Of a stretch of DNA of 23,625 nt, positions 2,044-23,471 are shown in pieces. The position numbers and the translations under genes are program-made. Numbering within the stretch: position 1 is the first letter of the stretch; every line of letters begins with the position of its first letter. A model generated the notes under the pieces. The model had not been told where the DNA came from and searched no databases. It saw only the letters and a list, made by a program, of their open reading frames with translations. Origin of the DNA: a virus; the IMG/VR virus record IMGVR_UViG_3300017593_001363, positions 1-23,625 of that record. One strand, 5' to 3'.

Positions 2044-2086
2044 CTTTACCTCCTATGGGTATATAATATACGTATAAAATATTGCT

Positions 2087-2103: not shown

Positions 2104-2116
2104 CTATCTAACTTCT

Positions 2117-2566
2117 CTACGAAATTATAGTAAGTTTGAACAACTGTGAACCAGCAACTAGCGACTCACCAGCCCAGTTGACACTAGTCATTAACGCGTT
2201 GAACGTGAATGAGAACTCATGCGGATCATCAGTAAACGGGAAGGTTAACTCCCCACCTGACCTCGCCTTCCAAATATCTAGCTCCACTGTTGCCCCGTCT
2301 GGTCGTCTATGATACAATCTTAGTGCGACCTCCTTAGTTGTCGTTAAACCTCCAAACTCCAACTGCGTTGTACCTGTTAAACTAGCTCCGCCTAACGCAT
2401 AATCGAAATTAGTGAGATTCCATTCTATACCTGTGATTGTCAAAACCCCAGCCTCGCCTGTAACATATGACTTTACTAGCGTTGCAGGTGAACCTTGCAT
2501 AATATCCACCATCGTTCTAGTTACCGCGAAACTAGCTCCACTCCTTACAGCCCCGACATCGACACT
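2117..2566 (-). CDS. Major tail (tube) protein, exon 3 of an intron-split gene starting at 3524
   Basis: This exon encodes 149 residues plus stop of the siphoviral tail tube protein, from SVDVGAVRSGASF to the end. The segment VDVGAVRSGASFAVTRTMVD followed by a QGSPATLVKSYVTGE stretch matches the usual tube-protein pattern of a GG/DVGAV turn, a beta hairpin and a VTGE strand. The protein would lack a start if read alone: the GTG at 2569 has no ribosome site, since what precedes it is the P9 hairpin of a group I intron. Joining exon 1 (3524 to 3518), exon 2 (3264 to 3227) and this exon gives a 164-residue protein beginning MAYNFSLGPCTLLLG, then SVDVGAV, the expected spacing for the family. Exon joins were set by reading frame and P1 pairing and are predictions. 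Confidence 0.85.
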   Translation of the reverse strand, partial: SVDVGAVRSGASFAVTRTMVDIMQGSPATLVKSYVTGEAGVLTITGIEWNLTNFDYALGGASLTGTTQLEFGGLTTTKEVALRLYHRRPDGATVELDIWKARSGGELTFPFTDDPHEFSFTFNALMTSVNWAGESLVAGSQLFKLTIIS

Positions 2567-7338: not shown

Positions 7339-7778
7339 CTTAGGCCTCCTATATTAAATTTTTCTATTGGAATCATTTTATAAGTTGATTGTAATCTCCA
7401 CATCTCAAAAAGTGAAGTTATTTTTTCTCCCTCTTTAATCTTCTTAACAGCGCGCAGCAGTAAATCTCTACTCGATCTCATACAGTGAACATCTTTTCCG
7501 ATTCTAAAACAAATAATGAAAGTCTGAACCTCTTTAAACCTTTCCATTAAACTTGCACAAGATAAAGATAGATCTAACAAACATAGGGCGACGAATGCAG
7601 AGCTAACTAAACCTATTTTCATTGGATCTATCATTAAATATAAGATATATCCATCCCCTTTAAATAAGCTTTTAAGAGGATAACCGTATCCAGTTAGAGG
7701 TATAGAAGCTTTTATTACTTGATCAGCTTCTTCCTTTCTCTTTATCACAATTTCCTCTCTTGTTAAAACATCCATCAA
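7332..7778 (-). CDS. Hypothetical protein in the head-tail module
   Basis: I do not recognise this 148-residue protein. It begins MMDVLTREEIVIKRKEEAD with AGGAGGT upstream and overlaps the stop of the head closure gene by four bases. It overlaps the start of the triple glycosyltransferase gene by seven, so it is translated as part of the structural operon. The middle has a hydrophobic stretch (MKIGLVSSAFVALCLLDLSLSCASL, about residues 53 to 77) that could be a buried helix or a membrane segment, followed by FIICFRIGKDVHCMRSSRDLL and an amphipathic helix. Five cysteine or methionine-rich spots do not form a zinc pattern. Its place suggests a small tail or head-tail protein. Confidence 0.6.
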   Translation of the reverse strand: MMDVLTREEIVIKRKEEADQVIKASIPLTGYGYPLKSLFKGDGYILYLMIDPMKIGLVSSAFVALCLLDLSLSCASLMERFKEVQTFIICFRIGKDVHCMRSSRDLLLRAVKKIKEGEKITSLFEMWRLQSTYKMIPIEKFNIGGLRW

Positions 7779-8359
7779 GCTACCTCCTTATCCACTACGC
7801 AATCATAATGATGAATACCATCATAACCATATCTTGCGATAGGGGGCTGTGTAATCCAGCGATCATCTCCATCAACTATTATATCATTCCCTATAATGTC
7901 ATTCTCTAAGTAAACTAACTTAGTCTTACCAGTCTCAATCAGCCCTGGTGTTTCAACTCCTAACGCAGCTTGCTCCCTAATAAATCTGACCTTTAAATTT
8001 GACTTCACTAACCTTTCCGTTAACACTGGTTGACCTTGAGGAGTGCAAGCTTGTACCTTTAAGGTTCCTGCTGTGAACCCCGTGGTCGTGATACCAGTAA
8101 TAGATGAGTAAATATTCGTCGATTGTCTAAAACCATCTACTGTAAAAGCGAATGTTTCAGGTGTCGAAGCTCCGGAAACTAATCCTGTAATTGTAATCGA
8201 ACCTGTTCCTGACATACCATCTACAGTTAAAAACATGCAGCTCTCGCTACTAGGTTGAGTCGTTAAAGACATAGATGTAGTTATTGTAGTAGCTGCTAAA
8301 AGCACATCACTTCTCCTTCTAACATTAACAGTTTTATTCAACAATCCTTCAAAACTAAT
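7775..8359 (-). CDS. Head closure / head-tail adaptor protein with beta-rich insertion; probable ATT start
   Basis: With the start at ATT 8359 the protein is 194 residues and opens MSFEGLLNKTVNVRRRSDV, a typical beginning of head closure proteins (LLNKT...xRR). The end is also typical: LKVRFIREQAALGVETPG, then YLENDIIGNDIIVDGDDRWI and YDGIHHYDCVVDKEV. Between residues 20 and 115 lies a Ser/Thr/Gly-rich beta segment (VDGMSGTGSITITGLVSG, FAFTVDGFRQSTNIYSSITG) not normal for the family; it looks like an Ig-like insertion that may project from the neck. A TTG start at 8344 would remove SFEGL and has a weaker ribosome site, whereas ATT has GGAGG with 7-base spacing. It follows the gp6-like connector, as expected. 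Confidence 0.68.
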   Translation of the reverse strand: MSFEGLLNKTVNVRRRSDVLLAATTITTSMSLTTQPSSESCMFLTVDGMSGTGSITITGLVSGASTPETFAFTVDGFRQSTNIYSSITGITTTGFTAGTLKVQACTPQGQPVLTERLVKSNLKVRFIREQAALGVETPGLIETGKTKLVYLENDIIGNDIIVDGDDRWITQPPIARYGYDGIHHYDCVVDKEVA

Positions 8360-8365
8360 TTGACT

Positions 8366-8373
8366 ACCTCCTC
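8366..8373 (-). promoter_or_regulatory. Strong ribosome binding site that argues for an ATT start codon
   Basis: The minus-strand sequence GAGGAGGT ends seven bases before ATT at 8359. It has no ATG, GTG or TTG within a usable distance in any frame except TTG codons 17 or more bases away. The ATT frame yields the family-like opening SFEGLLNKT. Confidence 0.55.
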
Positions 8374-8392
8374 AATGCTAGGAACGCTCATT

Positions 8393-8944
8393 TTATACAA
8401 CATCAGCGACATACAAGTCTAACGTCTTCCTAACACTTTCAAAGCATTCCTCCCTTATGTTCGGAATTGTATAAGAGTAATCACCTATCTTTTCTCTTTC
8501 GAACGCCCCCTTTCCTCTCCTGTTATATGTCGCGTCTATTAACTCTAGAGCCGCTAACTCTATATCAGCAGGTACCGTCGTCAAACCCGCTGTATACGTA
8601 ATCGTGACACTTCCTACCCCTTTGGTAAACCAATGCCCCTCTGTATTCAGTACAACCTCACCATGACTATACACCGTATAACATGATGTAGCTACAAGAG
8701 AGGGAGACTGGACAGAGTTATCAGTCATAGCAATAACTGAGGTTAAGTTAGGATGACTAACAACAATCCTATCTTGGTGATCGGTAACTACATCAAACGT
8801 TTCGTTATAAGTTACGGAAGAAAAAGTTCTTTTACAGTAGCTCTGAATTCTCTTGCTGACACCGTTAATAATAGTGTTTAAGATTTCAGTTGCACCTGTT
8901 ACCCCTAAATACGTTTGAGCTGTAGTTAAAGCAACTAAACCCAT
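8393..8944 (-). CDS. Head-tail connector protein (HK97 gp6-like)
   Basis: This 183-residue protein fits the gp6-type connector that forms the ring under the portal. The N-terminal helices LTTAQTYLGVTGATEILNTIINGVSKRIQSYCKRTF match the family pattern of a short-lived helix pair ending in an aromatic/basic turn. A beta-rich middle follows (VVTDHQDRIVVSHPNLTSV, VTITYTAGLTTVPADIELAALELIDATYNRRGKG). The final stretch, a xAGxxxVPxDIxxAxxxLxxxxYxRRG element, is the clearest family feature. Its ATG overlaps the stop of the upstream small basic protein (TAATG). It lies between capsid genes and the head closure gene. Confidence 0.82.
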   Translation of the reverse strand: MGLVALTTAQTYLGVTGATEILNTIINGVSKRIQSYCKRTFSSVTYNETFDVVTDHQDRIVVSHPNLTSVIAMTDNSVQSPSLVATSCYTVYSHGEVVLNTEGHWFTKGVGSVTITYTAGLTTVPADIELAALELIDATYNRRGKGAFEREKIGDYSYTIPNIREECFESVRKTLDLYVADVV

Positions 8945-9222
8945 TATTTACTCCTTCTCTTCTCCCTTTTTCTCCTGATCCTTCGTCTCAGTTTCAACCT
9001 TTCCTCTCTACTAACCTCTTTTACGTTACCGTATCTTTTCTTCTTTGGCGGAGCTAAAGTAAAACCTTCAGCTAATAGTGACCGCATCGCTGTCACCGTC
9101 CTGCATGTTGCGACTCCGTTCACAACTTCAACATTTTCCGAATATGTAGGGATTATATAATGCTTATTAAAGTCTCTTAGATTTCTCCTCTTATATTGAG
9201 GGGAGTGGAGTATGTAAGGCAT
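8944..9222 (-). CDS. Small basic protein of the head module, unknown
   Basis: This 92-residue protein starts at ATG 9222 with AAGGAGGT upstream. The N-terminal 55 residues (YILHSPQYKRRNLRDFN, VEVVNGVATCRTVTAMRSLLAEGF) look like a small folded structural domain: the V-x-V-x-x-G-V-A-x-x-x-T pattern ending in LLAEGF is common in short phage head proteins of unknown role. The last 35 residues are almost all charged (REERLKLRRRIRRKREKRR) and could bind DNA or RNA, or the inside of the capsid. It is coupled to the connector gene by a TAATG overlap. Confidence 0.65.
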   Translation of the reverse strand: MPYILHSPQYKRRNLRDFNKHYIIPTYSENVEVVNGVATCRTVTAMRSLLAEGFTLAPPKKKRYGNVKEVSREERLKLRRRIRRKREKRRSK

Positions 9223-9244
9223 TTAGTTACCTCCTTAATGATGC

Positions 9245-9406
9245 TTATGAACCTAACGAAAACAGAAAGCATCCTATCCCGAATACTATCGGGAACACCT
9301 TCATCAATAGCGCGTAGATAGGCTCCCGCATCTTTATTTCAGCAATTGTCGAAGCTAATACCCCTCCGACACCAATACTCATTACGATTATCCCAGCAAT
9401 TTCCAT
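9245..9406 (-). CDS. 53-aa two-helix membrane protein in the capsid module
   Basis: This small frame reads MEIAGIIVMSIGVGGVLAST and so on, ending FPIVFGIGCFLFSLGS. It starts at ATG 9406 with GGAGAGG immediately upstream and fills the gap between the decoration-like protein and the small basic protein, so it is very likely a real gene. Two hydrophobic helices (about residues 3 to 21 and 33 to 52) flank a short charged loop (AEIKMREP). It is too short and too far from lysis genes to call a holin with any assurance; a membrane peptide or an inner virion protein are alternatives. Confidence 0.7.
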   Translation of the reverse strand: MEIAGIIVMSIGVGGVLASTIAEIKMREPIYALLMKVFPIVFGIGCFLFSLGS

Positions 9407-9987: not shown

Positions 9988-10959
9988 TTAAGGCATAACA
10001 CCTTTCAATCTAGCGCAATACAAAGGATTCTTCAGCACGAAACACTCATCGCAATAGATTTCGAACTCGTCATACTGAGACGTGGTCTTTGCTAGAGGCT
10101 TGACAGTTACTGGAGTCCTTTCCGCGACGAAGAAGTTTTCCTTGTCGACTGCATAGATTGAACTACAAGTGGTCGTGATACTATCTGAAGGACTCACTAG
10201 ACAAGTCTCAGCATCAGATATGTTGGAGCTAACAAAGATTGGAATACCGTTGTAAGTAGGAAGTCTAAATCCTCCTTTAACTTCAACGACATTAACCCAC
10301 CTTTGATTTACCTGCATCAAACCTTGCAGAATTCGGCGGGTCTTTTTGCTCATTATCAGCATATCTGGCATTCCCTTACACTTGTCGATCAACTCATCTA
10401 CCATCTCAAGCGTTAACGATGTACCGCCATCTGTACCCGACCAAATGACCTGAGAGGCGCTGTCATACATGTCTAGCAACTCCGCCAAACCACTCGGACC
10501 TTTACCGGCTTCGCAACGACCACCCATCGTACCGCTAGAAGAACCGCTGACCATCGCGTAATCTTCAGCATTTCGGAAATCGATCGACCTATCCTCGATC
10601 TCTTGCGCTAATACGTTTATGTAACCCCTGCTCTCTGCTTGTAGTACCCTTGTAACTCTTCCTTTTGCGAACAGAGTAGCATAAGGTACTTCAACCAACG
10701 TATAGGAACTTTGATCTATGAAGCCGGTTCCAGTTGTCGTAGTAGTTTCACCGATCCAGTGATAATACGTCTCGCCAGCTGCAGTTCTCCTATGAAATCT
10801 ATATGCAAAACCTGTACCTTTTCGTCGTGGGATATTTTGGCGTAGTGGATTGTTATAGTCGATCATCTGTGCGATTACTTTGTCAATAGCCGGCTCTTCC
10901 AACAAGCGAATCGTTCCACCTGCCGAAGCGGATTGTAACGCTTTTCTTATATCAACCAT
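9988..10959 (-). CDS. Major capsid protein (HK97 fold)
   Basis: This 323-residue protein forms the icosahedral shell. It follows a scaffold-like gene and a protease gene, as HK97-fold capsid proteins do. Features that fit are the N-arm helix IDKVIAQMIDYNNPLRQNIP, the E-loop region with TYYHWIGETTTTTGTG, the spine helix RVTRVLQAESRGYINVLAQEIEDRSIDFRNAEDYAMVSG, the P-domain helix LEMVDELIDKC with MLIMSKKTRRILQGLM, and the closing YNGIPIFVSSNI. Residues 13 to 26 (AGGTIRLLEEPAID) recur almost exactly in the 967-aa ligase protein. The cysteines near the C-terminus (EIYCDECFVL) are unusual for a capsid protein. The ATG has AAGGAGGTGAG upstream. Confidence 0.88.
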   Translation of the reverse strand: MVDIRKALQSASAGGTIRLLEEPAIDKVIAQMIDYNNPLRQNIPRRKGTGFAYRFHRRTAAGETYYHWIGETTTTTGTGFIDQSSYTLVEVPYATLFAKGRVTRVLQAESRGYINVLAQEIEDRSIDFRNAEDYAMVSGSSSGTMGGRCEAGKGPSGLAELLDMYDSASQVIWSGTDGGTSLTLEMVDELIDKCKGMPDMLIMSKKTRRILQGLMQVNQRWVNVVEVKGGFRLPTYNGIPIFVSSNISDAETCLVSPSDSITTTCSSIYAVDKENFFVAERTPVTVKPLAKTTSQYDEFEIYCDECFVLKNPLYCARLKGVMP

Positions 10960-10974
10960 TGTTATCTCACCTCC

Positions 10975-12216
10975 TTATAACAATTTTTCAACTTTGCCGA
11001 GGAGCATCTCTAATCTATCCTTTGGGTTAGCTTCTTTCCACTCCTCAGACTTCTGTAACTTCTCAACCTCCCCTTCTCTAGTCTCTCCCTCACCTGTTAA
11101 TCCCTTACGGATTGGAATACTTTCTAGTTTCTCCTCAAGTACCTTAACAGACTTTACTAGCTCAGCAACATCCTTCTTGACTCCTTCTACTTCTGTTGCT
11201 TTTTTCTCAACCTTCTCTAAAATCTCAAGGAACTTAGGATCCAACTCATCAAGTTTTTTACTAGTTGGTGCGGGATAAGGGTAGGTACCTCCTATTACCT
11301 TTGACAACATTGACTTCACCTTCTGGAAAGCCTTTTTCGTATCGCCTTTAGAAGCTTTAATCATACCATCCAGCGTCGAAAAGATGGTTTTGAAAGATCC
11401 AGCTTCAATGCCCGGGTATTTTTCACCAGGTGGCGGATACTTCTTCTCAGCCTCTTTCTCCTCCTCAGTATCAACAGTCACTCTAACTTTCGCTTTCTCA
11501 ACTTCCTCACCCGACTTCTTCAACTTTAGTTTACAGGCTGCTGCAGCTTCTTTCATACTCTTCCCAGCTTTCCTCTGCTCTCCAATACATTTAGACCATG
11601 CCGACTTTTCCTCATCTGTAAGACCTAAAGTATCAGCGATCAGCTCAACTACATTTTCCTCATCTGATTTTGCTGTCTTCTTCTTTTTCCATTCTGCCAC
11701 GCACTCCTTCATGGACTTACCACCACGCATACACGTTCCCATAAACTTTGTATAAGCACTCTTCTCCTCCTCCTCTAACCCAACTGCGTCGGCTATCGCA
11801 TTCAACTTTTCGTCAAGGTCTTCCTTCTCCACAGGGGCACCTTCAGTCTCCGTGATTATCTCATCTAACTCATCTTTTGGAACGACTTCCATCTCATTCA
11901 CCTCCTTACTTAAGTTTCTAGTATTACTTCCTTTCATCTTAGCCCCGCATTTCGGGCAAGTAAGTTCAGCGCAAGGTTTGCTTTCACCTTCTCCCTTACG
12001 TTCATGTTTCATCGTATATCCACAACTGGGGCAGACGCAATATTTCGCTCCGCCTATACCTTGTCTTTCACCGCCAACACCGACCCCCTCACCTAAAGCT
12101 TTCTCTTTCCTTTTCATTATAATGAACCTCCTATTAATAGCAGGACTATCTACTAATCCAACAGAATCGACATTAATGCCAAATAATTTATGTTTCACCT
12201 TCTTCCTATCTGCCAC
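10975..12216 (-). CDS. Scaffold-like protein with zinc ribbon and internal repeats
   Basis: This is a 413-residue, highly charged protein directly upstream of the capsid gene. The N-terminus (FGINVDSVGLVDSPAINRRF) is the opening seen in many phage protease/scaffold proteins (V-x-x-V-x-L-V-D-x-P-A). Residues 58 to 95 carry a zinc ribbon: CVCPSCGYT, then PCAELTCPKCG. Residues 135 to 230 hold two copies of a motif: AVGLEEEEKSAYTKFM with GGKSMKECVAEWK, and TLGLTDEEKSAWSKCI with AGKSMKEAAAACK. The C-terminal 100 residues are Lys/Glu-rich and probably coiled coil (EVEGVKKDVAELVKSVKVLEEKL), as in scaffolds. I prefer GTG at 12216 (ADRKK) because AGGTGG lies five bases ahead; a start at 12225 would consume that site. 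Confidence 0.72.
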   Translation of the reverse strand: MADRKKVKHKLFGINVDSVGLVDSPAINRRFIIMKRKEKALGEGVGVGGERQGIGGAKYCVCPSCGYTMKHERKGEGESKPCAELTCPKCGAKMKGSNTRNLSKEVNEMEVVPKDELDEIITETEGAPVEKEDLDEKLNAIADAVGLEEEEKSAYTKFMGTCMRGGKSMKECVAEWKKKKTAKSDEENVVELIADTLGLTDEEKSAWSKCIGEQRKAGKSMKEAAAACKLKLKKSGEEVEKAKVRVTVDTEEEKEAEKKYPPPGEKYPGIEAGSFKTIFSTLDGMIKASKGDTKKAFQKVKSMLSKVIGGTYPYPAPTSKKLDELDPKFLEILEKVEKKATEVEGVKKDVAELVKSVKVLEEKLESIPIRKGLTGEGETREGEVEKLQKSEEWKEANPKDRLEMLLGKVEKLL

Positions 12217-12234
12217 AATCACCACCTCACTTTT

Positions 12235-12271: not shown

Positions 12272-14044
12272 TTATGCTTCCGCCCTAAAAGCACTCCCTT
12301 TTATACTATAACCTGTAAGCTCCCCACTTTCGATCTTATCCCTTAGCGCCTTAGACTTTATTAAAGTACCTAAGATCCAACTACCCTTTCTAACTTTCTG
12401 ATTTTCCCAATTAAAATCTATCGGAGCTATATACGACTCAACAACATAACAATCCTTTGATATAAACCAATGATTAATATCAATCTTTCTTGATTCTATT
12501 AGAAACTTATGAGCAGCCCTTTCTATTTCCTCCGCTGTCTCCGAATCCCCTTGCAAATCTACTACGTCCGGTTCTAACACAACCCCATATACAATCCCTT
12601 TCTTCTTATCATATTTCGCAATAGGAACGTATAAATCTAAAGACTTAGTGGTAGGGGTTGCTGACCTCTCAAACAACCACATATTCATTCTAGGGTCTTC
12701 CTTCTTAAACGTAAACAACCCCTTCAACTTCTTCCCCTTAACTTCAACTTTCTTAAATTCACTAGAATCCTCTAAAATTCGACATTCTCCTTCATCTGTA
12801 ACTATTATCATTGATGGAGTATTTTTCGACGGATTTAACCGTGTTTTTGGCCGAATATCGACCTTCTCTCTTAAACCTAGACTCATATCTTCCTTGTATT
12901 TATGTGGCTCCCAGATAGCAGTAACGCTTTCATTGACTAAAGGGTCTCTTTCTAAAACAAAGTGAAATAACTTTTCTTCTCCGACATCGCAGTTAAAATG
13001 ATATTCCTTCGTCGTCGGTCCGAATCTAATACTAATAGGTCCGCGCCAGGTCTGCTCCTGTATTGTGAATTTACCCTTTCCTGCCATCTTAAGCAGTGAA
13101 TACTTAACTATTTCATCCCTCAAACGCTTAGCCTCTTTAATATCTTTCGCCTTCCAGTACTGATGACTTACAGGTATTTCTTTACGTACACTCTTTGGTA
13201 AACAAGAGAAACCTAAGGGCCCAATCCACCCTTTCTCAACAGCATCTTTTGACAAAACATATGGCGTCTGGTTGATTGGCTGAATGCATAACCAAAAAGT
13301 ACGAGCCCTTGCCGGTAACGGTTTACCCTCGGGTAATATTTCATCCTTTTCAATTTGTGATAACTGCTTATTTATTTTTGACTCATTCACCTCAAGATAA
13401 GTTTCTACTGCCTCATCTGACATTTTAGCGATAGAGGGGGCAATCGACCTAGGTAGCTGTCTGAAAACAAGTCTACCTTTAATTTTACCATTCTTATAGA
13501 AGTACTCGTGGCTATATGCTTTCTGTGAGCCGTATTCTACTAAACCTTTATCAACAATTATCATCACCCCAGGATGCTCTTTCGTTGCACCAGGTGACCC
13601 CGCAGGTATAACTCCCTCGTGGGTTAGCCATTCAACCGGCTCAGAAGATTTTGTAGTAGCGTACAAGTTCGCTCTTCTAACTCCACCTCTGGTTCTCCTC
13701 TCTTTAAACTTACCTGTCTTCCAGTTAATCTTCCAAATGTCCTTCTTAGCTAGTGCACGTGCCTGAGCTAGCGTTGTTACATCTTCCTTTATTTTACCAG
13801 GCATTAAGGAGCTAATCGTCCATCCGACAAGAAACCTCTCAACAGCCTTTTCAACTTTTGCCACCCATTTATCTCCAACTTTCTTATATTTCATTTTAAA
13901 ACGTGTCCAAGCAATAGCACCAGGATACTTCGAACCTTTATCTCTAGCCTCGTCGAAATACCTAGCCCAAATATTTACCTGGGCTAGGGTAAGCCCTGCT
14001 GTCCTTAACGCTTTTGGAACCTCTGATAGCTTATCGTATGGCAT
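12272..14044 (-). CDS. Prohead protease fusion: ChaB-like, LigD phosphoesterase-like (x2) and XkdF protease domains
   Basis: This is a 590-residue protein. Residues 1 to 65 are ChaB-like (PYDKLSEVPKALR, then AIAWTRFKMKYKKVGDKW). Residues 68 to 198 match the later part of the LigD 3'-phosphoesterase domain: FLVGWTI, WLTHEGVIPAGSPG, VMIIVDKGLVEYG, GKIKGRLVFRQL. The first strands and His/Asp/Arg motif are missing here but occur at the end of the 967-aa protein. Residues 325 to 460 are a second, weaker copy (FTIQEQTWRG, SMIIVTDEGECRI, GKKLKGLFTFK). Residues 474 to 590 are the XkdF/S78_2 putative prohead protease domain (IVYGVVLEPDVVDLQGD, INHW, VVESYIAPIDF, GELTGYSIKGSA). The protease would mature the capsid before packaging. 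Start ATG with GGGGTGAT upstream. Confidence 0.85.
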   Translation of the reverse strand: MPYDKLSEVPKALRTAGLTLAQVNIWARYFDEARDKGSKYPGAIAWTRFKMKYKKVGDKWVAKVEKAVERFLVGWTISSLMPGKIKEDVTTLAQARALAKKDIWKINWKTGKFKERRTRGGVRRANLYATTKSSEPVEWLTHEGVIPAGSPGATKEHPGVMIIVDKGLVEYGSQKAYSHEYFYKNGKIKGRLVFRQLPRSIAPSIAKMSDEAVETYLEVNESKINKQLSQIEKDEILPEGKPLPARARTFWLCIQPINQTPYVLSKDAVEKGWIGPLGFSCLPKSVRKEIPVSHQYWKAKDIKEAKRLRDEIVKYSLLKMAGKGKFTIQEQTWRGPISIRFGPTTKEYHFNCDVGEEKLFHFVLERDPLVNESVTAIWEPHKYKEDMSLGLREKVDIRPKTRLNPSKNTPSMIIVTDEGECRILEDSSEFKKVEVKGKKLKGLFTFKKEDPRMNMWLFERSATPTTKSLDLYVPIAKYDKKKGIVYGVVLEPDVVDLQGDSETAEEIERAAHKFLIESRKIDINHWFISKDCYVVESYIAPIDFNWENQKVRKGSWILGTLIKSKALRDKIESGELTGYSIKGSAFRAEA

Positions 14045-14078: not shown

Positions 14079-14861
14079 TCATTTTAAATACTCTGGTAAC
14101 AATCTACTTAAAACATCAGGGTCATTTTTATGTTTTTCAAACCTATTCCTAATTTTCTCCTCAGTAACATGTATATGTTGAATAGTAGCCCCAGTCCTAA
14201 TCTGTCTAGGACTCAGTCTCGCTTTCCTACCGTATATCTGTCTTTCTATAGCGATATCTAAATCTACGTTTGCCCAATGAGCTCCCCAAAAATGCTCCTT
14301 CGCCTCTCTAATATGAGTCCCCTCAATATTAGTATGAAAGCCTGGATTCCACTCGATACCCGCCTCAGGCCTAACGATCACCGGCTTACAATAAGTCCAA
14401 TTCGGATGCGAAGTAAGATCCGGGTCACCATGCACTCTTTGCGTCAGCACAGGCCTGCTGACATCAAGATCTTCATCTGTAACGTGTTTGTACACCTGGA
14501 ACATTTTAGCACGAACCATATTAAAACTGTTTTGCTTTGCTAAGAACTCCTTTGCTGAATTGTAACCTCTAGGAGGAAAAATAAATTCGTCAGAATCTAT
14601 CGCGTACACCCAGTCGAACTTATTTGCCAGGGTTTTAACAAACTCATTAACGTGGTCTACTTTCAGATAATCATCGAACCCCTCAGGAAAACAGAAATCG
14701 ATTATCTCAACGTTATCGTAATTCTCGCAAATCGACCTAGTGTTATCACCTGTATCAACATCTAAAAATAAAAAGATCTTGTCTACATAACTGTATAACT
14801 TAAGAAAGAACGGGGCCAAATCCTCCTCGTTATACCAATGTGTAACAATTGCTATTTTCAT
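14079..14861 (-). CDS. Glycosyltransferase, family 2-like
   Basis: This is a protein of about 260 residues with a GT-A fold start KIAIVTHWYNEEDLAPFFL, the segment KIFLFLDVDTGDNTRSI, and a DxD metal site in DWVYAIDSDEFIFPP. Later come Trp/His-rich acceptor-side motifs (GFHTNIEGTHIREAKEHFWGAHW) seen in the Glyco_tranf_2_4 type. I prefer ATG 14861 (MKIAIV) because its TG overlaps the methyltransferase stop and GGGTG sits eight bases before it; ATG 14873 adds four residues. It is the last gene of the radical SAM-methyltransferase-glycosyltransferase cassette. Substrate unknown. Confidence 0.85.
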   Translation of the reverse strand: MKIAIVTHWYNEEDLAPFFLKLYSYVDKIFLFLDVDTGDNTRSICENYDNVEIIDFCFPEGFDDYLKVDHVNEFVKTLANKFDWVYAIDSDEFIFPPRGYNSAKEFLAKQNSFNMVRAKMFQVYKHVTDEDLDVSRPVLTQRVHGDPDLTSHPNWTYCKPVIVRPEAGIEWNPGFHTNIEGTHIREAKEHFWGAHWANVDLDIAIERQIYGRKARLSPRQIRTGATIQHIHVTEEKIRNRFEKHKNDPDVLSRLLPEYLK

Positions 14862-15382
14862 AAATACACCCATACTAAAACTCTAACTGGTCCGTGTATC
14901 TCTTTAAAAGTTTCATCTACCGCTTGTTTAACTCCGCCGTAAACTCCGCCATAATCGTGGAAAGCAATAATACTGTGCGGTTGTAACTTACTCCGACACA
15001 ATTCAGTATCCCTTTTTACATCTTCATATGTATGCATCCCATCTATAAAGGCAAAATCAAATATAGGATCGAGCTTCGGTATAACATCTGCAGACTTACC
15101 AATGTGATATATTATATTATCCCAACCTTCAATATTCGCCTTAAACTTATCCAGCGTTGTAAACTTACCCATCTGTGTCTGACCATTAGCGCTAGCTCTA
15201 AAAGTATCTACAGTGTGAACAACCTTTGCAACTTCTGCCAAACACAGAGTACTTTTCCCTAAAAAGCTGCCTATTTCTAAACACGTTCTACCCCTCGCAA
15301 GCTCTTGTAACTTTGCAACCTCTGATACTCCTAAAAAACATGTGCAGTAGCCACTTATATCGGCCCAGTGCTTCTTACCCAT
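14858..15382 (-). CDS. Class I SAM-dependent methyltransferase (Methyltransf_24 type)
   Basis: This 174-residue protein has motif I in CLEIGSFLGKSTLCLAE (about 34 to 50), the acidic end of strand 2 in VVHTVDTF (D59), and the post-I core FDFAFIDGMHTYEDVKRD (D114). The closing SIIAFHDYGGVYGGVKQAVDE is typical of O-methyltransferases that act on sugars (CmcI/Methyltransf_24 group). No target recognition domain for DNA is present, so nucleic acid methylation is less likely. Its ATG overlaps the radical SAM stop, with GGAGG seven bases upstream, and its own stop overlaps the glycosyltransferase start, so the three genes are one translational unit. Confidence 0.87.
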   Translation of the reverse strand: MGKKHWADISGYCTCFLGVSEVAKLQELARGRTCLEIGSFLGKSTLCLAEVAKVVHTVDTFRASANGQTQMGKFTTLDKFKANIEGWDNIIYHIGKSADVIPKLDPIFDFAFIDGMHTYEDVKRDTELCRSKLQPHSIIAFHDYGGVYGGVKQAVDETFKEIHGPVRVLVWVYL

Positions 15383-16247
15383 CTCTATACCTCCATCCGT
15401 GCACCATATCTGCTCTCATATCTCCCCGGTAGTTACCCGGATCCCAACTCCATTTTAACTTCTCTAACTCTTCGATAGTAAATTTCTTCTCAACTAATTC
15501 CACATCCTCCTTAGACAAACGTCTCAACTTATGCTTCTTAAATATTTCCAAAAGATGAGCTGAGAACTTTTCTTTCTTAACAGAGAGAGGTTCCCTTTTC
15601 ATTGGAACTGCTGCCCCGCACAAACCACAATACCTTTTAACTTGATCTTGAAAGTCTTCAGGCTTTTTATTCCACCAACCCTTTTTAATCGGATAGCCAC
15701 CCGGGCCATCTAAAAGGCTATCGAGAGCTCCCGCGACCTCACAAAAAAAGCACCCCTTCGGAGTTATCGTTGGACACCAAGTTCTTTGGAGCCAGCAATT
15801 ATTGATTAGTTCTTTTCTATATTCTATATCCTCCACGACATCATCTGCAGCAACTGTTATCGGTTGGTGTAAGCAAACTTCCTTCTGATACTCATCATGT
15901 TCATTATACGCAACAAATCCAAAAGTCTCATCTATTAACTCCTTATACCCATCGTATTTCGTAGAACCAGAAGACCACAATCCTACCTTCTCTCGCGGAA
16001 CCTCTTTTTGTAAAATCAAACATATCTCTTCAAACTGAGGATGCAGAGTTGGTTCACCTCCGATTATTCCTATCTGTTTAGGCCAACCTTCCAGAGACTC
16101 AAGAGCTTTACGGAAAGTATCTATACTCATATTGAACTTTTGGTCCGGTCTCAGGTGCCTAATATACCTGGTACAATAAGCGCACCTCTGTCCACAAACA
16201 TTAGTTACATCGATCTGGCATAGCCATGCATCGTATATAGGTTTCAT
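15375..16247 (-). CDS. Radical SAM protein with extra C-terminal cysteines
   Basis: This 290-residue protein has the 4Fe-4S motif CxxxCxxC at C18, C22 and C25 (VCGQRCAYCTRY) and the GGEP motif at 63 to 66 (IIGGEPTLHP). This part of the AdoMet radical fold is complete. Further cysteines at 151, 158, 166, 169, 207 and 210 (CPTITPKGCFFCE, YCGLCG) could hold an auxiliary cluster as in SPASM-type enzymes. The tail is rich in Trp/Arg/Lys. AGGAGG precedes the ATG. The substrate is unknown; with the methyltransferase and glycosyltransferase downstream, a role in making or modifying a sugar or a virion peptide is the simplest guess. Confidence 0.9.
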   Translation of the reverse strand: MKPIYDAWLCQIDVTNVCGQRCAYCTRYIRHLRPDQKFNMSIDTFRKALESLEGWPKQIGIIGGEPTLHPQFEEICLILQKEVPREKVGLWSSGSTKYDGYKELIDETFGFVAYNEHDEYQKEVCLHQPITVAADDVVEDIEYRKELINNCWLQRTWCPTITPKGCFFCEVAGALDSLLDGPGGYPIKKGWWNKKPEDFQDQVKRYCGLCGAAVPMKREPLSVKKEKFSAHLLEIFKKHKLRRLSKEDVELVEKKFTIEELEKLKWSWDPGNYRGDMRADMVHGWRYRDG

Positions 16248-16255
16248 ATAACCTC

Positions 16256-19159
16256 CTATTCATTTTCATTTCTTAAATCGTTGTGGGCGCTCTTCCTTAT
16301 AAAGTGGATCTGTATAACATACCTATAATCCTTTTCCTCAGGGGGCAAATGCATATAAGGATCCTGCTTCAAAAAATACCTACCATCTTTTTCAACAAAC
16401 CTAAAATCAGTATTTAAATTATTTTGTTCGAAAAACTCAACTATAGACTTTTCAACTTCAATAAAGTCCGGTACCTCTCCAACTAATACCTCAGTACCAT
16501 CCTTTTTTAACGGAATACCATATATGTTAACTTTTTCAACTAACAATCCAGACTCCCTTCCTATCTTTAAAGCTGATGCAAAGGAGTCGGGAGCTGCATC
16601 AGATGCTCTGTACTCATAAAACGCAGGTTCGTAAAACTCCAACTTATGCAACCCGGTCCGCGGATCAGTATAGTAATTGACAGTATGAAACTTAACAGTT
16701 ATTATACCACCTATTGGTACTTTAACTTTCGTATTGAAACAGCGGCCGACCTTAGTATACTTCTTACCTTTCACTTCAACCACAGTTTTAGGGTCGACTC
16801 TATCCTGTGATGTAAATGAGAGTGCGTAGTCGTAGTTATATACGCCTTTTGTTTTAGTTTCCGTTGCCTTCCAAACTATACCGTGAACCTCTGCCATAGT
16901 TTTTAGCTTAAACACCTCATTTGTAGAACCGGTCAGAGTATACCTCATATCTACTTTCTTTACCATGGCCCCTTCACTACCGATAGCACTAGCACATTTA
17001 CGCAGAGCAGCCTCCAACTTTTTAACAGTATTGCAGAAGAATGAAGGTGAAAGATTCAAGTGACTTGTCTTAAAAGAGGGTTTATCTAATGTTGATTGCA
17101 GGAACTTCAAACTTTTCAATCTCTTCAACCTATCACTATAAGGATTCTTATGAATATCCCCATCGTAATATTGCATATCGAAACAATTAGCTACAATTCC
17201 ACTATCGTCTATTGGCTCTTTAGACTTTGGATTTAAGTGGCCAGCGACAACCTCTCTAGGCTGGTGCACTCCCCCCCTCCACCATTCAATTTCGCAATCC
17301 AAAATGACAGCATGCATCCCAACTAGTTTCTTCACATCCGCTTTTAATGAGGGTAATCTAGATGTATAATCCTCACCTTGATCACTAAAAACTTTAAACC
17401 TGCCTTCTCCGTCCCAATGCAACTGCGAGTGTATGCCATCATATTTCTTTTGGGTTATTACCGGGGGAATTTCGGTCCCTAACTCTTCCTTCTTTGCTAA
17501 ATCCTTCAAAAACTCAACCATAGCTTCAACACTGTATTTCTCACCTTTGCGGTATCCCATTAGTGGCGAAATGGAGGTCTTTTGAGGATAGAAAAATCTA
17601 AATAGTACGACTTTATCCTCCTTTTTAGATGCTTCTGCCTTTGCTTTTGCTTCGGCAGATACTGCTTTACTCAACTCTCTTTTAATCCTATCCCTAATAT
17701 CTGGGTTTGTATTATCTTTCCATTTTTCTCCGACTGCTCCGCCCTCAACTCTCTTAATTTCATTAATATCGCTGAAGTTCCTCCTATCATGCTCACTATT
17801 CACCCACTTTCTAAGACAATCCTTACAAAACCACGCCCTTGCCATTCCCTCTGCCCAAAGGACCTCGTACTCAGGAGGCTTATCACACATCATACATTTA
17901 TCTTTACGGTAATTTACTTTTTCAACGCTCCTCTTGAAATCCTTACAGGCTGGGTCACTTGCGTTTACCTTCTTATTCTTCAAAGTGCACTTACCATCCT
18001 TAAAGTATTTACAATTACCACAAACCTTATCGTCAATAACAGGCTCCTCTAATATTCTAATTGTACCACCTGCTGGGCCTGTAGTTAACTGCTTGCTCTT
18101 ATAAAACTCTTTTGCGAATTCAGGCTCGTTCATCTCCTCAAACTGCAAAGGGTTTCTTGGAACTAGGCATAAATCATAAGCAGGTAAGTTTTTCCAGTTG
18201 GGACCATATCGCGTCCCATGCCATTCAACATCATTCTTAGCTGTGCCAAATCTATCTCTAAACAACCGGTCCACCTTCAACCGTAACTCTTTATCTAATA
18301 CTAGTATCAACCTATTCCCATCTTCCTCTGCTCTCGCGATAATATCCATATCATTTGGTTCTCTATCTTTTGCATAAACTTTGCTGCCGGAGACTGAGAT
18401 GAACTTAGGTATCCACACAATAGACGGAAGCTTAATTTTAGCTAAGTCCATTTGTTCAAGAGTTGATTTCCTCAATAGATACTCTTCCTTATTTTCAAAC
18501 TTACCTATCGCGTCCTCAATTAACTTCTTCTTTTCAGAATACAAACACCCGATAACTTCCTTCCCTTTCAACAACTCTCGCAGCCTATCCACAAAAAGCT
18601 CCCTTGATTCTTCGTTGAGAAGGTTAGGTGGAAAATCGTATTTAAATTCTGGTGCTAACGAATCTGCGTATCTAATTAAAACGACAGGTTCAGAAACGAT
18701 TAAGGGTTGATAATCAGGGTATTTTAAAAATAGCTTTTGGAAGGAGCCTCTATGAACTACAGATAGAGGGATTGGTTTTGTTTTCGCACAAGGAACCAAT
18801 AAAACTTTCCTTACCCCTTTCAACCAACTTCTCATGAAATTAAAATACCAATCATACGCGTGAAAGGCAGCAACGCCATCTTCCGCCTTTCTAACTTTAG
18901 GTGGACTAAAGCCACCCGGGACTAACGACTTCTTAAAACGCCGGGCTGCTCTGTCCAACGGATTATCTTTCAAGTCTAAATCTATACCCCTTTCCTTTAA
19001 CTTAGCGCTAATCAGATAATGTATCCTAATAATATCTTGGTTAGTAAAGTTAGTAGTCTTATTGTATAACTGGTGACAACGGTGATGCAATTGTAATAGT
19101 TGAGCTTTAGTCTCATTATCGAGCTTGGATGGATGTTCTAAAATTTCTTCAAATTCCAC
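16256..19159 (-). CDS. Multidomain protein with ATP-dependent DNA ligase core
   Basis: This is a 967-residue protein. Residues 115 to 205 (VRKVLLVPCAKTKP, LIVSEPVVLIRYADS) resemble the DUF5591-like fold seen with archaeosine enzymes. Residues 245 to 335 look like a nucleotidyltransferase (SVSGSKVYAK with NDMDII). Two zinc units follow: 380 to 408 (CGNCKYF, GKCTL, PACKDF) and 422 to 448 (CMMCD, FCKDC). Residues 515 to 850 are the ligase core: motif I KYDG with lysine 572, motif III DCE at 621 to 623, motif IV SEGAMVKK near 728, motif V KLK at 751 to 753, then an OB-fold-like part. The C-terminus (RYVIQIHFIRKSAHNDLRNE) is the start of a LigD phosphoesterase domain and then stops. It should seal DNA nicks. 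Residues 363 to 376 repeat a capsid protein peptide. Confidence 0.88.
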   Translation of the reverse strand: MEFEEILEHPSKLDNETKAQLLQLHHRCHQLYNKTTNFTNQDIIRIHYLISAKLKERGIDLDLKDNPLDRAARRFKKSLVPGGFSPPKVRKAEDGVAAFHAYDWYFNFMRSWLKGVRKVLLVPCAKTKPIPLSVVHRGSFQKLFLKYPDYQPLIVSEPVVLIRYADSLAPEFKYDFPPNLLNEESRELFVDRLRELLKGKEVIGCLYSEKKKLIEDAIGKFENKEEYLLRKSTLEQMDLAKIKLPSIVWIPKFISVSGSKVYAKDREPNDMDIIARAEEDGNRLILVLDKELRLKVDRLFRDRFGTAKNDVEWHGTRYGPNWKNLPAYDLCLVPRNPLQFEEMNEPEFAKEFYKSKQLTTGPAGGTIRILEEPVIDDKVCGNCKYFKDGKCTLKNKKVNASDPACKDFKRSVEKVNYRKDKCMMCDKPPEYEVLWAEGMARAWFCKDCLRKWVNSEHDRRNFSDINEIKRVEGGAVGEKWKDNTNPDIRDRIKRELSKAVSAEAKAKAEASKKEDKVVLFRFFYPQKTSISPLMGYRKGEKYSVEAMVEFLKDLAKKEELGTEIPPVITQKKYDGIHSQLHWDGEGRFKVFSDQGEDYTSRLPSLKADVKKLVGMHAVILDCEIEWWRGGVHQPREVVAGHLNPKSKEPIDDSGIVANCFDMQYYDGDIHKNPYSDRLKRLKSLKFLQSTLDKPSFKTSHLNLSPSFFCNTVKKLEAALRKCASAIGSEGAMVKKVDMRYTLTGSTNEVFKLKTMAEVHGIVWKATETKTKGVYNYDYALSFTSQDRVDPKTVVEVKGKKYTKVGRCFNTKVKVPIGGIITVKFHTVNYYTDPRTGLHKLEFYEPAFYEYRASDAAPDSFASALKIGRESGLLVEKVNIYGIPLKKDGTEVLVGEVPDFIEVEKSIVEFFEQNNLNTDFRFVEKDGRYFLKQDPYMHLPPEEKDYRYVIQIHFIRKSAHNDLRNENE

Positions 19160-19904: not shown

Positions 19905-20243
19905 CTACTCCAAACAAATTTGAATATGACAGTGTTCCGGATACGCAAAATGTTCTTTATCAACAGCGACCACTCTTCTACATTCTTTATTTTTAATTAA
20001 CGCTCTTGCAACTGATAACCCTAACCACTCGTACCTTTGGACTATTTCTTTTATACACTTGCACGCATGGTGGTAAGGTTTACCCACGCCGACAACCAAC
20101 AATCTCATTTTATATTGTCTTTTATTTAAGTCTTCGCATACAACAATTCCCTCTTTATCACAATAGTACCACTTAGTTAAATGTTTAAAATTACAAAAGG
20201 GACACAGGTACTTCACGTTGTGTAAATCTTCAAATTCCTCCAT
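19905..20243 (-). CDS. Hypothetical Cys/His-rich protein
   Basis: I do not recognise this 112-residue protein. It has a likely zinc finger at the start (YLCPFCNFKHLTKWYYCDKEG) with CxxC, then a second Cys/His cluster (HHACKCIKEIVQRYE) and a His/Cys-rich end (YPEHCHIQICLE). The middle strand MRLLVVGVGKPYHH is Rossmann-like but short. It overlaps the glycosyltransferase-like gene by 31 bases and starts at ATG with GGAG six bases upstream. A metal-binding accessory protein is the most that can be said. Confidence 0.6.
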   Translation of the reverse strand: MEEFEDLHNVKYLCPFCNFKHLTKWYYCDKEGIVVCEDLNKRQYKMRLLVVGVGKPYHHACKCIKEIVQRYEWLGLSVARALIKNKECRRVVAVDKEHFAYPEHCHIQICLE

Positions 20244-20800
20244 TTTAACTCCAACCTCTTTCTATCTTTTATATACGAGGGAGGCTCAACTCCCCACTCA
20301 CCACCCCAGTGGCTTGCATCTCCTCCTATAACGTACACACCTAAACCTCTATCTAAACATTGCAAGCAAAAATCTGCTCCGTAACAGTGCCAATTAAATG
20401 TCTTATCATCGAACTTCAATCCGTTCCTTTTATCGACAATAATACAACATTCATCTAACGTCTGAACAGGGTATGGAAAGTTAAAGTTAGAATAATGACA
20501 CCAACATCTCCTTCCGATACTAGTCATCCCGACTATTCCCAAAGCCCCCCAGCTCTCTATTAACTCCAGCTGTTCAAAGAACCCCTGCCAAAAATCTTTA
20601 CCAAAGATCACATCAGGATGCACGCATATAACGATATCATTTTTAGCAGCTTCTAATCCAAAGTTAAGGGCGGAGGCCATCGAGTGCCACATTCTATTCT
20701 CGTAATTCTCCAACGCCACTAAATCAGTCCCCTTTGGTAAAAAGGGTGTCGGGTCTCCTCTATTATGTTTAACAACTACTGCTGAGATATTAGGTCTCAC
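20213..20800 (-). CDS. Glycosyltransferase-like protein (GT-A fold)
   Basis: This 195-residue protein starts at GTG 20800, overlaps the portal stop and has AAGGAG ten bases upstream. It has the layout of a small GT2-like enzyme: ISAVVVKHNRG as the first strand, SALNFGLEAAKNDIVICVHPDVIF with the DxD position read as HPDV, then GALGIVGMTSIGRR and ADFCLQCLDRGLGVYVIGGDASHWGG as the acceptor half. The pattern A-x-N-x-G-x-x-A-x-x-D-I-x-x-x-x-H-x-D is common in phage and capsule glycosyltransferases. It is shorter than usual and lacks the long C-terminal helices, so substrate and activity are uncertain. Confidence 0.72.
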   Translation of the reverse strand: MRPNISAVVVKHNRGDPTPFLPKGTDLVALENYENRMWHSMASALNFGLEAAKNDIVICVHPDVIFGKDFWQGFFEQLELIESWGALGIVGMTSIGRRCWCHYSNFNFPYPVQTLDECCIIVDKRNGLKFDDKTFNWHCYGADFCLQCLDRGLGVYVIGGDASHWGGEWGVEPPSYIKDRKRLELKWRNLKIYTT

Positions 20801-22124
20801 TTACTTTAAACTCCTTATTATCCAGCTTTGGAGCTTTTTCTTTATGCCCATCGTCTTGACTCCCCGTTACACCTTCCTCTTTCAAATCTTTTACGAATAT
20901 CAAATCCTTACCTATAACCATAAAGGCATCGTCACCACCGTCTATGGCCTCTTTCCCTTTTTCTGCTCTAACCTCATTTATCGTTTTTATTCCAGTTTTA
21001 ACATAACGGGAGGCTGCCCTTGATTCAGCTTCTTCATCTTCGTACATCTTGCGTATAAAGTGGATCTGTAATTCAGGGTAACCAGATGCCTCTAATATGT
21101 CTTTGTTAATATAGGTGGTGAGCATATTAATAAGAGGTATCAGCATCCGGTTCTCCGCAATGCGTAACTGGAATAGAGCTGTGCTACGGTTTACATCACT
21201 GACAGCGCCGTACTCAATCGGTTGGAGTCCAAAATTCCTAAAAATAACTCTTTCGATAGATCTACGTAATTCATCTAATTGCATCTCTCTATTTGCTCTC
21301 TTAAAATCGATCCACTCAACTCCCGTGGTCCCATAAACGATATTCATCTCTCGCTTACTTCTCTCACCCCTTCTCTCTCTAAACCTTGCTTGAGCTCTTT
21401 TGTACGCTTCTTTCCCGATCATACCTAAGTTTAAAATACCAGGTGGTATCTCATCCATTGTAAATGAATCTGCCACCTGTTCATTCGCAAATAGTAATGA
21501 GGCAACTTCGTCAACAATCGACTCGATTATAGGCTGTCCGTACGGCGACTTTGTATTCGGATACATCATTAAATATATAATTTCGTCTTTATCAAACTCA
21601 ACCGCCTTGTCAACCCCCCAATATTGCTGATAGCCTATCAAAACTCCATGCTTTTCCTGATCTATTATAGGTCTAAACGTTGAACCGTCCCTGGCGTATA
21701 TCTCTAACAACTTCTTTTTATTAGCCGCTGAATATACTTTCTCTATTACCCCAGCATCGTATACCAAGACGTCAGTTAAAACTTTAGCCAATAATTGCCT
21801 AAATGTCTCATCATTTGCATTAGGATTGTTAAAAAACTCTACAACCTCTCTTATTCTTTTATCCGACGTAGTCATACCAGGTTTGGGTAAAAACTCATAA
21901 TCATGTGAGGTTACTGACCTAACATTGTAGTCAACTGCAGCTCTAACTGCTGACGACCTAATATAGCAATCCCATAACTCAGTCCAAGTTAAACGGGAGG
22001 GTCGAGTGGCGACTTTCTCATATCCTCTCGCGTAAGATTCAAAACCCTTAGGCTCCTTCAGCCTCTGAACTTCCTCCTTTAACTCCTTAACCGCTCTCTT
22101 ATTGAAGATGTCTGGCAATTTCAT
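20790..22124 (-). CDS. Portal protein (HK97-type)
   Basis: This 444-residue protein forms the ring through which DNA enters the head. The order fits the family: an N-terminal coiled segment, the clip and stem region with AAVDYNVRSVTSHDYEFLP, a long wing (DVLVYDAGVIEKVYSA, DEIIYLMMYPNTKSPYGQPIIES), the crown helices (FRERRGERSKREMNIVYGTTG), and GLQPIEYGAVSDVNRSTALFQ, the most conserved portal stretch. The C-terminal 50 residues are charged and probably disordered (EEGVTGSQDDGHKEK). ATG with GAGGAG eight bases upstream. Residues reading QIHFIRK are encoded by a 17-base string also found at the end of the ligase gene. Confidence 0.9.
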   Translation of the reverse strand: MKLPDIFNKRAVKELKEEVQRLKEPKGFESYARGYEKVATRPSRLTWTELWDCYIRSSAVRAAVDYNVRSVTSHDYEFLPKPGMTTSDKRIREVVEFFNNPNANDETFRQLLAKVLTDVLVYDAGVIEKVYSAANKKKLLEIYARDGSTFRPIIDQEKHGVLIGYQQYWGVDKAVEFDKDEIIYLMMYPNTKSPYGQPIIESIVDEVASLLFANEQVADSFTMDEIPPGILNLGMIGKEAYKRAQARFRERRGERSKREMNIVYGTTGVEWIDFKRANREMQLDELRRSIERVIFRNFGLQPIEYGAVSDVNRSTALFQLRIAENRMLIPLINMLTTYINKDILEASGYPELQIHFIRKMYEDEEAESRAASRYVKTGIKTINEVRAEKGKEAIDGGDDAFMVIGKDLIFVKDLKEEGVTGSQDDGHKEKAPKLDNKEFKVSET

Positions 22125-22182
22125 CCAAAATCTCCTCTATAACAGCAATTGCTAAGAATATAAACATTATTATAAGTATCAC
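22099..22182 (-). CDS. Possible 27-aa hydrophobic peptide between terminase and portal
   Basis: A GTG at 22182 overlaps the terminase stop (TAGTG) and has GGAGGTG within the end of terminase. It opens a 27-codon frame of pure membrane character (ILIIMFIFLAIAVIEEIL, then DEIARHLQ) that runs 26 bases into the portal gene. Coupling and ribosome site are good, but the frame is short and the portal site GAGGAG lies inside it. It could be a real small membrane peptide or chance. Confidence 0.35.
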   Translation of the reverse strand: MILIIMFIFLAIAVIEEILDEIARHLQ

Positions 22183-23471
22183 TAATACACCTCCACTGTA
22201 TCAAAACCAGCGAACATAGACTCTGTCGTCTGCCTATAAGCTTCCCTGGCAAACAACATTGCCATTACTGTATCATCATATTTACCAATTGGATATGATG
22301 CTAATTCTGACAACCAGTTACATATGGGACAAGCACAGTTTGCCGGATGCTCCCTTCCGCCCATAGGTACTTTCCACATACCTTTATCCATCTCTATAGC
22401 AATTGAAGGTAACCCTAAAGATATATCCGCCTTATTCAACCCTGTCGTATACGTTAACACAGGTATATTCATACCCAACGCTTCCATCCACTGAATCAAT
22501 GATTGCTGGTACCCATTGTTCTCAACGCAAAATATCGGCTTATCTATTGCAAACACTGTTTTAATCATATTTGCAGTCTGAGGTGAAGACCATCTACCTC
22601 TATATATTTTTAACGGATATTTAATATTCGCTTCTACCCCTATTTCAAACAACACTGTGTAGGCACCTGTCTCGCTAAGTGCCAAATCGACGCCTACAAA
22701 CTTTTCCATCTTATCAAACATCTTATTCGTCGGCTCTATATCCTTCTCTTTTATTTTCCTAATTATACTTTCAGGAAACATTGTCTCGGACTCGGTAAAA
22801 GCTATGTTTCTAAAATTTCTATCATAGGCCCTCTTCCCAATCAAGACCTCCCTCTCTTTTAACTTCTCAGATGGCCATTTCTCCCTCCAAACTGGTTCAT
22901 AATTCTCCCCTACCGCAAACTCTAATACTGACCATAATTCATTCTTCTTCAACTGATGGGTTAAATCATCTGCATGTAAAGGTGTTCCTATATACACTGC
23001 TCTCCCATCCGGTCCTAACAAGTTCATCCACACCTCGTCAAAGGCATCTTTTATTGCTGGTCTCAAAGCTGGCACCTTAATTGTATTCCTATACGAGTGT
23101 ATATCGTCGAAGAAGATGTGAGTCGCCCTGCCCCCCATACCTGTTGATAGTATGCCGACTCCCTCAACTGACGGGTCATGATCTTGAATATCTCTCCTAA
23201 CAGTTAGGGCAGATTTTGACCAGGTGTCAGCAGTCTCATCCGGTACCAAACCAGGAAACACTCGTCTTAACTTCTTATTCTTAGTCAAATGGTCTCGGAT
23301 CGCCTTAACTCTCTTACGCGCAACTCCGTCGGACGAGCTAATAATCTTTATCTTTGCATTCCGGTTATTCCCTAACGTGAATAGTATCCTTCCTAAAATT
23401 TGGCTGGTCTTCCCATGAAAACGAGGAAATATTATTTCTGCAAATTGGTGGGCGTCGATGTGAGCTTGCAT
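22182..23471 (-). CDS. terL: Terminase large subunit, main reading frame
   Basis: This 429-residue frame holds the packaging ATPase and nuclease. Walker A is FPRFHGKTS (15 to 23), Walker B IFFDDI (119 to 124), the coupling motif IGTP (161 to 164). The RNase H-like nuclease has acidic residues at VDLA (D262), CVENNG (E317) and YDDT (D399/D400). A HxxxCxCxxC unit (375 to 384, HPANCACPIC) probably binds zinc. The ATG at 23471 lies inside the protein: the normal terminase N-terminus (NTFMEYTFKDSETGSPF) is in the frame just upstream, and this frame continues it as QASIHKR. With only this frame the N-terminal adenine-binding region would be missing. No ribosome site suits the ATG. Confidence 0.93.
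   Translation of the reverse strand: MQAHIDAHQFAEIIFPRFHGKTSQILGRILFTLGNNRNAKIKIISSSDGVARKRVKAIRDHLTKNKKLRRVFPGLVPDETADTWSKSALTVRRDIQDHDPSVEGVGILSTGMGGRATHIFFDDIHSYRNTIKVPALRPAIKDAFDEVWMNLLGPDGRAVYIGTPLHADDLTHQLKKNELWSVLEFAVGENYEPVWREKWPSEKLKEREVLIGKRAYDRNFRNIAFTESETMFPESIIRKIKEKDIEPTNKMFDKMEKFVGVDLALSETGAYTVLFEIGVEANIKYPLKIYRGRWSSPQTANMIKTVFAIDKPIFCVENNGYQQSLIQWMEALGMNIPVLTYTTGLNKADISLGLPSIAIEMDKGMWKVPMGGREHPANCACPICNWLSELASYPIGKYDDTVMAMLFAREAYRQTTESMFAGFDTVEVY

Follow-up and report, generated by a model that had tools for sequence, protein, structure and literature searches.

Why would a virus encode a DNA ligase in the middle of its head genes? The question is raised by a 23,625-nt stretch of viral DNA (the window), in which a 967-aa ligase ORF (16256..19159; ORF list, Pfam, PHROG and family profiles) begins with a GTG codon that overlaps the stop of the gene before it. 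All structural genes of the window, as well as the polyprotein domains mapped below, lie on the minus strand. The initial annotation had placed the ORF between portal and capsid genes and this was borne out, with the portal gene at 20790..22124 (Pfam E 1.3e-23, PHROG E 5.7e-36) on one side and the major capsid gene at 9988..10959 (PHROG E 5.5e-15) on the other. The terminase large subunit (22182..23471, PHROG E 3e-44) and a head-tail adaptor (8393-8944, Pfam/PHROG scan) were also found.

Profiles, structure superposition and motif alignment all placed the catalytic and OB domains of an ATP-dependent DNA ligase at aa 540-865 (16565..17542). Pfam DNA_ligase_A_M matched aa 566-753 with E 7e-20, far above cut-off, and the PHROG family 'ATP-dependent DNA ligase' matched the 967-aa protein with E 3e-22. 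The ligase motifs K572-Y-D-G, E623, S728-E-G, K734 and K751 were found, the alignment putting the nucleophile K572 at 17444-17446. Six nucleotidyl-transfer residues (K572, D574, E623, E729, K734 and K751) were identical in 35/35 aligned sequences, which argues that the motif set already noticed in the initial annotation did not arise by chance. The reading DCE in motif III, which had been regarded as unusual, was rejected as a special feature: position 622 varies among the 35 aligned sequences (A in 17/35, C in 6/35, G in 5/35) and only E623 is fixed. The predicted domain had a pLDDT of at least about 90 across most of aa 540-860 and matched human DNA ligase 1 in superposition over 312 residues (Z 25.6, 2.9 A). 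By sequence, the closest solved relatives were archaeal/eukaryotic ligase-1 types, LigD ligases trailing by a wide margin. On profiles, alignment and model, the ORF securely carries a genuine ATP-dependent DNA ligase domain.

The ORF had also been described as a ligase polyprotein, with a nucleotidyltransferase (NTase)-like region and two zinc units. The ligase, NTase and zinc units stood, but the ORF is only one half of the polyprotein, its partner being a 590-aa ORF at 12272..14044; LigD-type PE domains, an XkdF protease, a gene-splitting cassette and a wider family had been missed. The ligase ORF contains, in order, N-terminal helices, a DUF5591-like domain, the NTase, the zinc units, the ligase and the start of a first PE domain (PE1). 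This start is formed by the last 35 residues (aa 933-967, 16259..16363; family PE1 profile E 3e-5), ending YVIQIHFIRKSAHNDLRNENE. They carry the motif QIHFIRKSAHNDLR, with equivalents of Gln40, His42, His48, Asp50 and Arg52 of LigD PE. In relatives the beginning of PE1 reads, for example, VVQHHFRGKS.HxDLR and is followed by L.GWTL. In the window the continuation was found in the 590-aa ORF from residue 65 (VERFLVGWTI...), the remainder of PE1 from 'RFLVGWTI' onward occupying aa 65-202 (13439..13852) by profile and by match to the virus ANMV-1. This second half of the polyprotein (Pfam, PHROG and profiles) has a ChaB-like start, its first ~64 residues bearing a weak resemblance to ChaB (E 0.04), and the PE1 remainder is followed by PE2 and XkdF.

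The two PE1 halves are separated by an inserted cassette of three Pfam-assigned genes on the same strand (14079..16247): a radical SAM gene (15375-16247), a class I methyltransferase gene (14858-15382) and a glycosyltransferase gene (14079-14873). The unsplit polyprotein is seen in ANMV-1 (KP703175, our locus L002), a virus of anaerobic methane-oxidising archaea, whose 866-aa 'ATP-dependent DNA ligase' (AJP62006.1) reads NTase-ligase-PE-PE. The ligase ORF (residues 530-962) and the 590-aa ORF (residues 75-426) gave adjacent matches in this one protein, the latter with 27.6% identity. In ANMV-1, as in relatives that have both domains in one ORF, ligase and PE are not separated by genes of the cassette type. 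These comparisons indicate that 16256-19159 and 12272-14044 are two halves of one polyprotein, split here by the cassette. In ANMV-1, too, the NTase-ligase-PE-PE protein comes directly after the portal gene (1913-3193, annotated 'MutT-like phage hydrolase'; PHROG E 2e-30), but it is unsplit, without a detected XkdF and without the DUF5591-like and zinc parts. The 1166-aa Cys-rich protein that follows the ANMV-1 ligase (5868-9368) has a MuF-type head domain at its end (E 2.5e-5). The text of the ANMV-1 paper does not mention the ligase.

When the PE1 family profile was compared with the PDB, LigD PE structures came first (3p43, 1.4e-4; 3p4h, 1.9e-4), followed by weaker matches to 3n9b and 2lj6, and the matches covered both sides of the domain. 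LigD_N was essentially the sole relevant Pfam family matched by PE1 members (13/30, E up to 0.05, best 6e-5). The metal triad His42/His48/Asp50 and Arg52 are about 95-97% conserved and Gln40 is conserved in 86%; in the window the metal motif, located where the ligase ORF ends, reads QIH..AHNDLR. His84 and Tyr88 of LigD have no counterparts, Q/E and W standing at these positions in the sequence alignment. P. aeruginosa LigD cannot do without either residue (PMC8656161, which also describes the roles of other PE residues), so the chemistry of PE1 may differ from that of LigD.

PE2 lies at about aa 245-460 of the 590-aa ORF (12665..13312). Its LigD-PE fold comes from the predicted PE-XkdF part of a relative, L006 (mean pLDDT 81), in which PE2 superposed on the LigD-type PE 3p43 with Z 16.0 (1.9 A, 117 residues), the first unrelated match having Z 4.3. 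PE2 filled the structure-search list for this model, and PE1 was assigned by sequence. We conclude that two PE domains stand in tandem, PE1 by profile and PE2 by model. The PE2 metal site is degenerate, the triad being lost in most members, the window included; L008, L009 and L017 keep an HH...EH[WY]D motif. With PE1 cut into two polypeptides and PE2 without its metal motif, only the ligase half appears plainly intact in the window. The sole exact direct repeat of at least 15 bases in the window, TACAGATCCACTTTATA (at 16314 and 21070), has one copy in the portal gene and one in the PE motif, where the ligase ORF departs from the family (HFIRKS vs HFRGKS).

By profile, the 590-aa ORF ends in an XkdF head maturation protease at aa 471-588 (12281..12634; Pfam PF14550 E 2e-30, PHROG E 2.6e-38). 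His525 and Ser580 were invariant in 18 aligned members. Like other XkdF (Peptidase_S78_2) proteases, the domain combines an invariant His/Ser pair with a slot between the portal gene and the scaffold and capsid genes. Unlike the XkdF of phage K5, which is short (157-codon) and stand-alone, it is part of a polyprotein. The protease is followed by a scaffold-like protein (10975..12225). Related ORFs occur in 33 loci and mostly stand between those for the protease and the capsid protein; both ends of the relative in L014 match PHROG head maturation protease families. The stand-alone protease of phage K5 (L113, 4762-5232) carries the annotation 'DNA methyltransferase', as do the XkdF proteins of numerous Pseudomonas phages.

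In the N-terminal part of the ligase ORF, the DUF5591-like domain (aa 117-229, 18473..18811) is a weak assignment to Pfam PF17884, with E 1.8e-4 for the fragment, under the curated cut-off, and 0.0032 for the whole protein. It is followed by a Pol-beta-like NTase (aa 232-348, 18116..18466; G258/D270/D272 and D329), defined by a family profile conserved over 41 ORFs. In most relatives this domain adjoins the ligase, and G258, D270 and D272 are invariant or nearly so. Its fold was predicted with moderate confidence only, and Pfam, PHROG and PDB sequence searches gave no significant match. By its conserved G...DxD motif it is a Pol-beta-type NTase, and it could serve in gap filling or protein nucleotidylation. 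Two Cys-rich zinc units were recognised in the sequence at about aa 380-450 (17810..18022). The second (about 17810-17900) recurs in L018, L020, L041, L088 and L096 at varying positions of the polyprotein, in the form CMxxC...PExDVLWADGxGRAWFCK.

A peptide at aa 356-385 (18005..18094; KxLxxxxAGGTIRxLEEPxID) is common to the ligase ORF and the N-arm of the capsid protein of the same virus (9988-10959; blastp E 4e-4). The many synonymous differences between the two DNA copies suggest that the similarity is kept at the protein level, and the peptide might mark a shared processing site or serve in docking to the capsid. It was not found in the polyproteins of other loci and is thus a lead rather than a rule.

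Viral and genome collections were scanned for further members; after removal of duplicates we had 61 loci, including the window and ANMV-1, whose domains were scored with our own profiles. Alignment queries were needed, since scanning viral contigs with one protein at a time (967-aa, 590-aa or L025) returned nothing beyond the query itself. Ligase and PE1 were each present in 55 loci and XkdF in 31. NTase and ligase shared an ORF in 45 cases, ligase and PE1 in 35, and PE1 and XkdF in 28; ligase and XkdF were joined in one ORF in 20 loci. XkdF was undetected in 30/61 loci, ANMV-1 included, several of which are truncated. In the window, as in quite a few of the other loci, the ligase is encoded in one ORF and the PE/protease in another. 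Omnitrophota were rejected as host: only 1/384 genomes matched, probably through a stray viral contig.

Within shared ORFs the domain order is NTase, ligase, PE1, PE2, XkdF; the one rearranged locus is L041, where a ligase-PE1 ORF is followed by an NTase-XkdF ORF. Where flanks were available, the gene order was TerL-portal-(MuF)-[NTase-ligase-PE-PE-XkdF]-scaffold-capsid, except in ANMV-1, which has its terminase gene downstream and on the opposite strand. Portal or capsid genes were independently supported by PHROG in ANMV-1, L004, L008, L018, L019, L029, L033 and L042.

Several polyproteins carry additional domains. Uracil-DNA glycosylase (UDG) was detected by Pfam in L025, L037 and 4/30 further members; in L025, L037 and relatives (L023-L027) the UDG-like domain sits between ligase and PE, which suggests a base-excision-repair set in this subgroup. 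D12 methylase was found in L019, L020, L041 and 4/30 further members, C5 methylase in L014, a metallo-beta-lactamase fold in L009 and 4/30 further members, and a 2H domain in L018 and L037. Inteins are inserted immediately after the ligase KYDG in L040/L085 and inside PE1 in L019 (9284-14410), a placement typical of functional sites. No DNA ligase other than the head-located one was found in any of 16 viral records, many of which are incomplete; a second, replicative ligase of ATP or NAD type was sought there and rejected, and no Ku was found in the same records.

The family shares with LigD of bacterial NHEJ, and with archaeal PE proteins, the union of ligase and PE in one protein, the PE fold and the Mn-binding triad. 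It differs from LigD in a ligase domain nearest archaeal/eukaryotic DNA ligase 1, in a Pol-beta-type NTase instead of an AEP polymerase, in tandem PE domains without His84/Tyr88 equivalents, in the lack of a detected Ku and in fusion to a head protease; in the scanned polyproteins Pfam reported no AEP polymerase domain. We rejected a Ku-dependent LigD NHEJ system, as Ku was not found in the 16 viral records, of which many are incomplete. The misfit extends to ligase lineage, polymerase type, Ku and the two PE residues, and we regard the protein as LigD-like rather than as a LigD NHEJ protein.

A parallel in architecture is offered by the polyvalent proteins of phages (Iyer et al. 2017, PMC5512222), which occur in virion gene contexts, carry any assemblin-like peptidase always at the C-terminus and include phage P1 DdrB, cited there as a case that is processed and packaged in the head. 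The polyproteins described here are likewise large, multidomain and encoded in a late/virion gene context, with Pol-beta NTase and 2H domains and, as in some polyvalent proteins, a C-terminal assemblin-like peptidase. The NTase of other polyvalent proteins has been proposed to modify proteins (PMC5512222). Here the NTase-ligase-PE-PE core is constant, whereas the extras of polyvalent proteins are shuffled. By domain assignment, several unrelated catalytic domains are found in one protein encoded with virion genes, as in the definition of the polyvalent type, and the fit is complete save for packaging in the virion, which we infer. The terms DNA ligase and LigD are absent from the main text of PMC5512222. 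In the literature searched we found no published LigD-like core in polyvalent proteins and no description of XkdF together with LigD.

In phages of the T4 and HK97 types, the head protease is shut inside the prohead, which is also where it works. We consider it probable, at roughly 60%, that a head-maturation-protease polyprotein of polyvalent type carries DNA end-healing and sealing enzymes along with the genome. The polyprotein would be made late, together with the head genes, and its protease end and the neighbouring scaffold would bring it into the prohead, where XkdF would cut it as the head matures. Once released, the ligase and PE enzymes would stay with the packaged DNA and, if active, work there or on entry, PE cleaning 3' ends and the ligase sealing what may be nicks or gaps before viral gene expression. 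Packaging with the genome is favoured by the C-terminal protease layout, as in PMC5512222, in combination with an end-healing and sealing core. It is further supported by the ligase-protease fusion in 20 loci, synteny, the added DNA-repair/modification domains, the inteins, the capsid-like peptide and the finding of no other ligase in the 16 viral records; the altered PE active site, the broken PE1 of the window and its PE2 without metal motif, an NTase that could modify proteins and the 30/61 loci in which XkdF went undetected count against it. The interpretation in the initial annotation is partly supported: its late, head-associated and possibly virion-carried ligase gains strength from the head-protease slot and the fusion, and the enzyme may repair nicks during packaging, as also proposed there, or act on ejected DNA. 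More tentatively, and at a little under even odds, tailed viruses, some of them at least archaeal, would carry within the capsid a DNA repair kit that processes itself (NTase, ligase, 3'-end healing and, in some lineages, UDG) as N-terminal cargo of the head protease, mending or closing the genome before viral gene expression.

Compared with circularisation and counter-defence, the simplest alternative is a late cytoplasmic ligase that would close nicks and gaps in concatemers once these are replicated and ahead of packaging; its fusion would serve co-expression only, and the protein would stay out of the virion. As the only ligase found in each of the 16 viral records, the enzyme may serve replication too, and the separate ligase and PE/protease ORFs of the window and many relatives agree with this. 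A covalent bond to the head protease in 20 loci and the fixed place in the head operon, away from replication genes, speak against it, and we hold it rather unlikely. NHEJ-assisted circularisation occurs in some mycobacteriophages, and a delivered LigD-like ligase and PE might similarly join the ends of a linear genome after ejection. The LigD-like pairing and a domain order conserved over 55 loci are in keeping with such a module. It seems improbable to us, given that Ku was not found in the 16 records, that Pfam reported no AEP domain in the polyproteins scanned and that UDG and methylase additions favour repair or protection over end joining alone.

Conflict-type domains such as methylase and 2H in these polyproteins, and the polyvalent-protein concept itself (PMC5512222), would suit a role in counter-defence, with the enzymes repairing or masking nicks and ends from host nucleases that attack incoming DNA, and the NTase modifying a host protein. 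The constant core is nevertheless one of DNA end healing and sealing, which makes this explanation an unlikely one. We know of no defence target for these polyproteins. That the ligase and PE folds are mere DNA-binding parts of a head protease or scaffold would explain why the PE2 metal motif is gone in most members; since all ligase nucleotidyl-transfer residues are identical in 35/35 sequences and the PE1 metal triad is about 95% conserved, we think this very improbable.

Returning to packaging with the genome, the presence of a ligase among capsid genes is explained, across this virus group, by its place in one large protein with PE and a capsid-maturing protease, and a small repair kit may be packed into the virion. 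If the enzymes travel in the virion, this would, to our knowledge, be the first case of tailed viruses carrying a module for healing and sealing DNA ends. The head protease would then act as an address label, and reading the fusion partners of head proteases would be a general rule for finding virion cargo. How viruses protect their genomes when long outside cells would become testable, and many unannotated proteins of 1000-1770 aa from uncultivated viruses would gain a likely function.

The head/tail operon of the window is interspersed with genes for radical SAM and methyltransferase proteins and for several glycosyltransferases, found within the cassette (14079-16247) as well as at 20213-20800 and 4993-7338. 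The 781-aa protein at 4993-7338 resembles two glycosyltransferase modules with a repeat region. These scattered genes might encode modifiers of the virion or of the host surface.
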